A stretch of 64,000 bases of DNA. Origin: an uncultured Anaerolineae bacterium. Its GTDB lineage: Bacteria > Chloroflexota > Anaerolineae > Anaerolineales > Villigracilaceae. Shown here in pieces: positions 21,407-46,330 of this stretch. Position numbers and translations under genes: made by a program. The stretch spans positions 1 to 64,000 of the forward strand of contig CAKZJX010000054.1 of the NCBI GenBank assembly GCA_937120535.1, written 5' to 3'. How positions within the stretch are numbered: position 1 is the stretch's first letter; the number at the start of each line of letters is the position of its first letter. The notes under the pieces are model-generated. The model did no database searches. It saw only the letters and a list, made by a program, of their open reading frames with translations, and had not been told where the DNA came from.

Positions 21407-22057
21407 CTACGCCTCCTTCTTTGCGGGTCGGGCTCGGCGTCCGCCTTTGAGCTCCGCCTGCAATGCTTCAAAACCTTGCCAATCGCCTTGTGCGGCCAAT
21501 TGGGCCTGTTCGATCCAACCTTCGGGGTTCATCATCTTCAGGCCGGCTTGGGTGAGGATCTGACGCACAGACTCCACATCGGCCTCGGCCAACTGAGCGA
21601 ATGTCTGTATGCCGGCCGCCTGCAATGCCTCGGCCACCTTGGGGCCGATCCCCTCGATGCGGGTTAGATCATCCGCCTCCTGCGCACCCGCTGCGGGCTG
21701 CGTCACCTCTGGCGCTTCCTCGGCTCGAGCGACCATCTCCGCCATTGGCCCGATGAACTCGACCTTCAAGCGAGTGTAATGCTGGCGATGACCACGTCGA
21801 ACGCGGATGCGCTTTTTGGGGCGATAGCGAAACGCCAGCACCTTCTCGCCCCGAATATGTTCGATCACCGAGGCTTGGGCCGCGATCCCATCAACCCAGG
21901 GCGTCCCGATCCAGTAGTGATCATCCTCGGCCAACAGTAGAACGCGAGCTAAAGTGATCCGTTCGCCGGGGTTCACTGGCAGGCGATCGACGTCCAAAAT
22001 ATCGCCTTCGGCGACGCGATATTGTTTGCCGCCGCTTTCTACGATTGCATATTTCAT
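21407..22057 (-). CDS. rplU: 50S ribosomal protein L21 with C-terminal helix-hairpin-helix extension
   Basis: [55 protein letters not shown]; extension [44 protein letters not shown]. Confidence 0.94.
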
Positions 22058-22196
22058 GATCTCACTCCACGGTTTCACTTCGCCTTGGTCCCTGCGATTG
22101 GCGCAGACAGCAATGAGAACCCGCTGAGGCCAAGGGGAAGCCGGTATGCACACATCCGCCCCGGCTACAGAAACGCCAGGGCAGAGGCAATCGAAA

Positions 22197-22226
22197 ATTA
22201 TAATGGTAGAACGGCTAAATTGTCAA
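22197..22226 (-). promoter_or_regulatory. Putative sigma-70-type promoter for rplU-rpmA-rpmE
   Basis: On the minus strand TTGACA (22226-22221), 18-nt spacer, TATAAT (22202-22197), upstream of rplU. Confidence 0.7.
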
Positions 22227-22234
22227 CCAAAATA

Positions 22235-22398
22235 GGGCTTGTTCAATAAGTCTCTTTGGACGGTACGAACTGTCTCTAGAAGAGCCACAAGAAGGCCGTT
22301 TGACCCTTGAATCGGTGGCTGATTCTATCGCTGATCCCTTCCCATGCCCGCTCTACCGGGCTCTCCTTTTGCGCCAAGAGTACTTATTGAACAAGCCC
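22235..22398. mobile_element. MITE-like interspersed repeat, copy A
   Basis: Perfect 16-bp TIR gggcttgttcaataag/cttattgaacaagccc; ~165 bp; nearly identical inverted copy at 46038-46203. Confidence 0.8.
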
Positions 22399-22407
22399 AA
22401 CTCTCTG

Positions 22408-22450
22408 GGGCTTGTTCGATAATTCTCTTTAGACGGCACGAACTGTCTCT
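22408..22450. repeat. Partial copy of the same repeat (one end only)
   Basis: gggcttgttcgataattctctttagacggcacgaactgtctct versus gggcttgttcaataagtctctttggacggtacgaactgtctct. Confidence 0.8.
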
Positions 22451-22526
22451 ATGGGTCTGGCCAATCAAGGTCCTCCTCAAAGCGTCTTGACATATAATAT
22501 CTCATACATCTGCAAGGAGGAGTCCT

Positions 22527-46037: not shown

Positions 46038-46203
46038 GGGCTTGTTCAATCAGTACCCTTGACATGATAAGGAGAGCCCGCTAGAGCAGGCATGGGAGGG
46101 GATCAGCGATGGAGTCAGCCGCCGATTCAAGGGTCAAACGGCCTGCTTGTGGCTCTTCTAGAGAGAGTTCGTACCGTCCAAAGAGACTTATTGAACAAGG
46201 CCC
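46038..46203. mobile_element. MITE-like interspersed repeat, copy B (inverted relative to copy A)
   Basis: gggcttgttcaatcag...gacttattgaacaaggccc; by eye most positions match the reverse complement of 22235-22398. Confidence 0.8.
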
Positions 46204-46210
46204 AGAGAGT

Positions 46211-46239
46211 TTGACGGTTCGGCAGGATCATGATAGAAT
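46211..46239 (+). promoter_or_regulatory. Putative sigma-70-type promoter for tRNA-Lys
   Basis: TTGACG (46211-46216), 17-nt spacer, TAGAAT (46234-46239), 18 nt before tRNA 5' end. Confidence 0.7.
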
Positions 46240-46257: not shown

Positions 46258-46330
46258 GGGCGCGTAGCTCAACCGGCAGAGCAGTGGCCTTTTAAGCCAT
46301 TGGCTGAGAGTTCGAGTCTCTCCGCGCTCA
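46258..46330 (+). tRNA. tRNA-Lys (TTT)
   Basis: Acceptor GGGCGCG/CGCGCTC, anticodon loop CTTTTAA, T-arm GAGAGTTCGAGTCTCTC. Confidence 0.92.

Follow-up and report, generated by a model that had tools for sequence, protein, structure and literature searches.

The window, i.e. the whole 64,000-nt stretch of DNA from an uncultured Anaerolineae bacterium that was analysed, carries two complete copies of a short repeat, copy A and copy B (Table 1), which are inverted to each other and lie 23.7 kb apart. Copy A is followed by TATTTTGG-TTGACA-18-TATAAT and then by rplU, and copy B by CAGAGAGT-TTGACG-17-TAGAAT and then by tRNA-Lys. Both full copies and both promoters are present in the sequence as the original prediction described them. 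The same prediction placed the −35 boxes 7 to 8 bp from the repeat; the value of 8 is right for both, as the end of the inverted repeat and TTGAC are separated by exactly 8 bp in copy A and copy B alike, whereas the value of 7 came from an extra C counted into copy B.

Table 1. Coordinates of the features in the window and of related elements elsewhere in the genome
Feature	Position	Strand
rplU, ribosomal protein L21 (TIGR00061), with C-terminal extension	21407..22057	-
rplU leader	22058-22180	-
rplU promoter −10, TATAAT, 18-bp spacer	22197..22202	-
rplU promoter −35, TTGACA; kept in 7 congeners without the element	22221..22226	-
9-mer TATTTTGGT separating copy A from TGACA; it ends in the T that opens the −35 TTGACA	22226..22234	-
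MITE copy A, complete, with both 16-17 bp inverted repeats	22235..22398	-
9-mer CAGAGAGTT between copy A and truncated copy; same 9-mer as beside copy B	22399..22407	-
Third copy, truncated to its R end, tandem to copy A	22408..22451	-
MITE copy B, complete	46038..46202	+
9-mer CAGAGAGTT beside copy B; it ends in the T that opens the −35 TTGACG	46203..46211	+
tRNA-Lys promoter −35, TTGACG	46211..46216	+
tRNA-Lys promoter −10, TAGAAT, 17-bp spacer	46234..46239	+
tRNA-Lys(TTT)	46258..46330	+
Composite L045	C118:27384-27896	
Composite L048	C73:4681-5193	
Composite L053	C127:7225-7740	
123-bp relative with the same termini, upstream of rpmJ	L098:1891-2013 (C120:70490-70612)	
Ends of another repeat, terminus GGCTTTGGTGCATAAATCGATGAA	L086, L087, L089, L051, C15:7332, C64:19253	
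Candidate parent element, truncated	C105:18994-19461	

The rplU leader (about 125 nt) is strongly conserved in seven congeners. Its consensus folds into two helices that show little covariation (both sides changed in 3 pairs), and no Rfam family matched it even at E = 1. It is a possible L21 autoregulatory leader. The C-terminal extension of L21, about 110 aa in length, is HhH-like by eye, and the extension alone matches other places in the genome.

When copy A was compared with its own genome (3.1 Mb in 140 contigs), 43 full-length alignable copies were obtained in addition to fragments, the copies sharing about 85-92% identity with copy A. The element measures about 164 bp, has no coding capacity and carries inverted repeats of 16-17 bp with the terminal inverted repeat GGSCTTGTTCAATAAG (ends GGSCTTGTTCAATAAG...CTTATTGAACAAGSCC). 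A pattern search using only the ends gave 99 matches, while the reversed control gave 0. As it is short, non-coding, present in multiple copies, bounded by terminal inverted repeats and associated with a target duplication of fixed length (9 bp; see below), the repeat is, judged from its sequence, a MITE, a small non-autonomous transposon. The predicted RNA fold of the element consensus is dominated by the inverted repeats, and it was not accepted as a sign of function.

Several other arrangements of this repeat were seen. At several loci, composites of 513-516 bp (three are given in Table 1) consist of the MITE carrying, within its left repeat, a nested IS1-family relic, with promoters flanking them, which suggests that the composite of MITE and IS1 relic moved as a unit. 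A 123-bp relative with the same termini is located upstream of rpmJ (assigned by NCBIfam), and the rpmJ promoter beside it has a poor −35 box (GGACGA) and a TATAAT at the right register. Another repeat, IS903-type-like in its terminus, has ends that are sometimes fused to the R ends of the MITE.

To measure the distance between element and promoter, 107 ends were collected, of which 16 abutted another terminal repeat and were set aside, leaving 91 usable ends. TTGAC started at an offset of 8 in 34 of these 91 ends, at 7 in 6 and at 9 in 2, while every other offset up to 37 had it in only 0-2 ends. The number expected at any one offset is 0.11, and the binomial P is about 1e-75 when the ends are treated as independent, which they are not fully, as they share ancestry and the copies recombine. 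The placement seen beside the two window copies is general in this genome and far from random. The 9-bp duplication finishes on the first T of TTGAC, so the site can be written as N8-T|TGAC. It had also been claimed that the same end of the element faces the promoter. This holds for the window copies, both of which present their R ends, but not for the genome, in which the promoter-facing ends are 20 R and 18 L; since both ends face promoters equally, the shared orientation of copies A and B is a coincidence.

The sequences beyond TTGAC resemble promoters. A −10 box with at least 4/6 matches at a distance of 16-18 bp was found for 81% of the 42 TTGAC ends, compared with 16% of 67 other intergenic TTGACs (Fisher P = 2e-11) and 6% of 660 coding ones (P = 2e-30), the rate for other intergenic TTGACs being approximate as genes were simple ORF calls. 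Among the ends without TTGAC, 8 of 49 had a TATAAT with at least 5/6 matches at the register, compared with 0-1 in each of 11 control windows; an example is TTGCTC-17-TATAAT before tRNA-Ser. Of the 39 complete elements, 29 have a stringent promoter at the register on one or both sides (the random rate is 0.6% per position), and 10 have none at either end. The flanks of the copies are otherwise unrelated to one another, with identities of 28% for the spacers and 27% for the 9-mers. Moreover, the rplU −35 box, −10 box and leader can be aligned in seven congeners, all without the element, and the repeat family is absent from all 80 relatives searched, congeners included. The promoter thus came first.

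Target duplications were sought by comparing the 9-bp sequences that adjoin the two ends of each of the 39 complete elements. The duplication was perfect in 10 and matched in at least 7 of 9 positions in 14, where 0.5 was expected from shuffled flanks; the match was below 7/9 in 25. At several loci, tandem copies have the same 9-mer between and around them (CACGTATGT, AGCCAGTTG and AGGGTTGCA), showing repeated insertion at the same base of one site. Within the window, CAGAGAGTT occurs twice, once separating copy B from its −35 box and once separating copy A from the truncated copy, i.e. as a split target duplication, which means that copies A and B took part in one rearrangement: either a tandem pair recombined with another copy, or intramolecular transposition occurred. 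Three further split duplication pairs (9/9) join other loci, with 1.8 expected by chance at 8/9 or better over all comparisons. In a gene-order check of the window inversion, the tRNA-Lys neighbourhood was not conserved in the congeners, and so it is the split duplication that argues for this inversion. Adjacent deletions and loss of the duplication are known for the IS903 group (PMC11708052). Later recombination between copies, or intramolecular transposition with adjacent deletion or inversion, would have swapped flanks, leaving most copies without a target duplication of their own and some with (unlike) promoters at both ends.

Among the genes downstream of these promoters, those for translation are prominent. 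According to end positions and ARAGORN, ten tRNA genes or clusters start 47-68 bp past the promoter-facing end (Lys, His, Phe-Gly-Cys, Ser, Asn, Glu, Val, Pro, Met and Arg). Protein targets checked with NCBIfam include infC, pheS, ileS, an EF-G gene and rplU, as well as rho, ilvD and argG, and further targets recognized by eye are transporters, regulators and metabolic genes. The connection with the translation apparatus, proposed from the genes beside copies A and B, is therefore real in view of the ten tRNA units and the first five of these protein genes, but it is not exclusive, given rho, ilvD, argG and the others. A target set extending beyond translation genes fits the targeting of promoters in general.

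The parent of the MITE is likely a divergent IS5-family element, for which the candidate is a truncated element at the end of contig C105, carrying the MITE terminal repeat and a transposase fragment. It lies 8 bp from a TTGACG, upstream of tRNA-Arg. The best model for the transposase fragment was the IS5-family model NF033579 at E = 4.5e-8, below the curated cut-off. The IS5-group DDE matches to this model (E = 4.5e-8 and 1.9e-7) are both below NCBIfam cut-offs, while a homologue in a distant genome (G500, see below) matched PF01609 with 34.9 bits, above the cut-off. A Pfam search of the C105 fragment detected no sigma-like domain at E below 1. Since neither an intact transposase nor a complete parent copy is present in the assembly (3.1 Mb, 140 contigs), present mobility and the pairing of the MITE with this cognate transposase are presumptive. 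The IS1 family was rejected as the parent: IS1 ends (...TTTATCCACTCCC) sit inside the MITE repeat and are accompanied by an 8-bp duplication, GTTCAATA, and the IS1 relics are thus later, nested insertions. Decayed IS1-family transposase relics are found in G000:C59 (L099) and about 50 other places, and their closest relatives are in Anaerolineae-type Chloroflexota genomes.

A phylum-wide search with the C105 fragment detected homologues at 39-46% identity in G500 and G504, both of them distant genomes, within elements of roughly 950-980 bp that have a different terminal repeat, GGGCTTGTCTTGCAAA. Among 15 terminal-repeat matches in these genomes and one congener, some of which are probably due to chance, TTGAC was located at offset 8 or 9 in 7, and two more combined a −10 box in register with TTGGCT or TTTTCA at offset 8. 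Inspection by eye of one G504 element showed a 9-bp duplication that is near-perfect and whose final T precedes TGACA. The 9-bp duplication is shared with the IS903 subgroup of the IS5 family (IS903B of E. coli; ISPam1 and ISPko1 of Paracoccus), whose members are listed with 9-bp repeats and are described as bearing outward promoters, not as selecting existing ones (PMC3281130). The terminal repeats also look alike by eye (GGCTTTGTTGAATAAATC against GGCCTTGTTCAATAAGC), so that the MITE agrees with this subgroup in its duplication and its terminal repeat. However, it does not agree in target choice: in E. coli, IS903B had TTGAC at the register in 0 of 20 ends, even though it makes 9-bp duplications, compared with 34 of 91 for the MITE. 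In addition, the parent transposase scores below the curated IS5 cut-offs. The IS903B control rules out the promoter register as a general IS903 property, and together with the register in G500 and G504 it places the habit in the clade of C105 homologues.

We consider it highly probable that the repeat derives, as a MITE, from a divergent insertion sequence of the IS5 family, and that the transposase of this insertion sequence chooses active sigma-70-type promoters for insertion. Strongly site-selective insertion, one of the two readings offered by the original prediction, is upheld by the 9-bp duplications, the fixed TTGAC register, the use of both orientations and the tandem re-insertion, and further by the empty, conserved rplU promoter in the congeners and by distant homologues in the same register. 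The transposase would make a staggered 9-bp cut that starts 8 bp before the −35 hexamer and stops just past its first T, and the element would come to lie, in either orientation, immediately upstream of a promoter left unbroken and directed away from it. With the MITE structure, target duplication, register, −10 boxes and promoter preference demonstrated in the genome itself, we infer that the target is sensed as a promoter unit and not as the word TTGAC. The transposase might contact RNA polymerase holoenzyme sitting on the promoter, or a shape that the holoenzyme gives to the DNA. As a guide, the holoenzyme would be the simplest choice: the cut spans the upstream boundary of the −35 contact, and sites are used in which the −35 box is poor but the −10 box is good. 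Possibly, the transposase itself reads both boxes, which would look similar, or it reads promoter DNA shape.

Recognition of the word T|TGAC only, with the enrichment at promoters due to selective loss of insertions elsewhere (in coding regions and at other sites), agrees with the fact that TTGAC itself, at a fixed offset, is the strongest conserved signal in the flanks. Selection against gene disruption leaves the difference in −10 boxes between the TTGAC ends and other intergenic TTGACs (81% versus 16%) unexplained, however, and ends without TTGAC still have −10 boxes at the register; we therefore regard this explanation as unlikely. The element could instead be a regulatory module, an upstream activating sequence or insulator of growth-related promoters that the host has retained, as many housekeeping and translation promoters bear it at a fixed spacing. 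This reading, which the original prediction phrased as a conserved upstream module, is improbable. The element is missing from the 80 relatives, including the congeners with an element-free rplU promoter; its orientation is not fixed, both ends facing promoters equally; and target duplications mark it as inserted DNA. The spacing would be fixed because of the chemistry of insertion. A secondary effect of the element on expression may nevertheless occur.

Adjacency of promoter and repeat in a fixed order might also mean that the promoter belongs to the repeat and moves along with it, but this is already contradicted by the unrelated spacers and 9-mers of the copies and by the native rplU promoter of the congeners, and we give it practically no credence. 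Finally, insertion might be broad, the survivors being those copies that are beneficial beside a strong promoter. The targets are often housekeeping genes, for which small shifts in expression could matter. However, benefit predicts neither a single-base register nor equal use of the ends, nor tandem re-insertion at the same base, nor a register shared with a distant lineage whose terminal repeat differs, making such adaptive retention very improbable.

According to the usual description, bacterial transposons choose their targets by short DNA words, DNA shape, bound silencers or one attachment site, and Tn7 at attTn7 is a bacterial element with a strict, apparently harmless target. We know of no single-base promoter register in bacterial MITEs such as MITEAba12 and TIMEs. 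MITEAba12 (PMC6382973) and TIMEs (PMC4133298) resemble the present MITE in being short, non-coding, bounded by inverted repeats, target-duplicating and multi-copy, and in deriving from an autonomous element. REP sequences serve some IS elements as targets (PMC1525189), likewise a strict and apparently harmless choice, but the target of these elements and of Tn7 is a repeat or one conserved site, whereas that of the MITE is a functional class of variable sequence. The outcome is similar to that of Ty3 in yeast, which uses a narrow window upstream of the genes of one polymerase, tRNA genes included, and leaves them unharmed (PMC8632968). However, Ty3 is an unrelated element that depends on the eukaryotic Pol III machinery, while contact of the MITE with a polymerase is presumed. 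Promoter-targeting bacterial insertion sequences were not found in the open-access literature. We see an even chance for the broader proposal that this IS5-type clade integrates by recognizing promoter-bound RNA polymerase or its sigma factor, in the manner of a bacterial Ty3, and that this habit, precise to the base at the −35 box, is conserved in distant branches of the phylum.

Promoter targeting by this element makes it directly testable whether the transposase responds to DNA or to polymerase. The insertions provide a natural promoter map for uncultured bacteria and a possible tool for placing DNA at active promoters. Copies of the element also serve as recombination points, reshuffling which genes stand back to back. 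If insertion is indeed guided as proposed here, it would represent a prokaryotic safe-harbour strategy that is built on the transcription machinery and leaves promoters unbroken.
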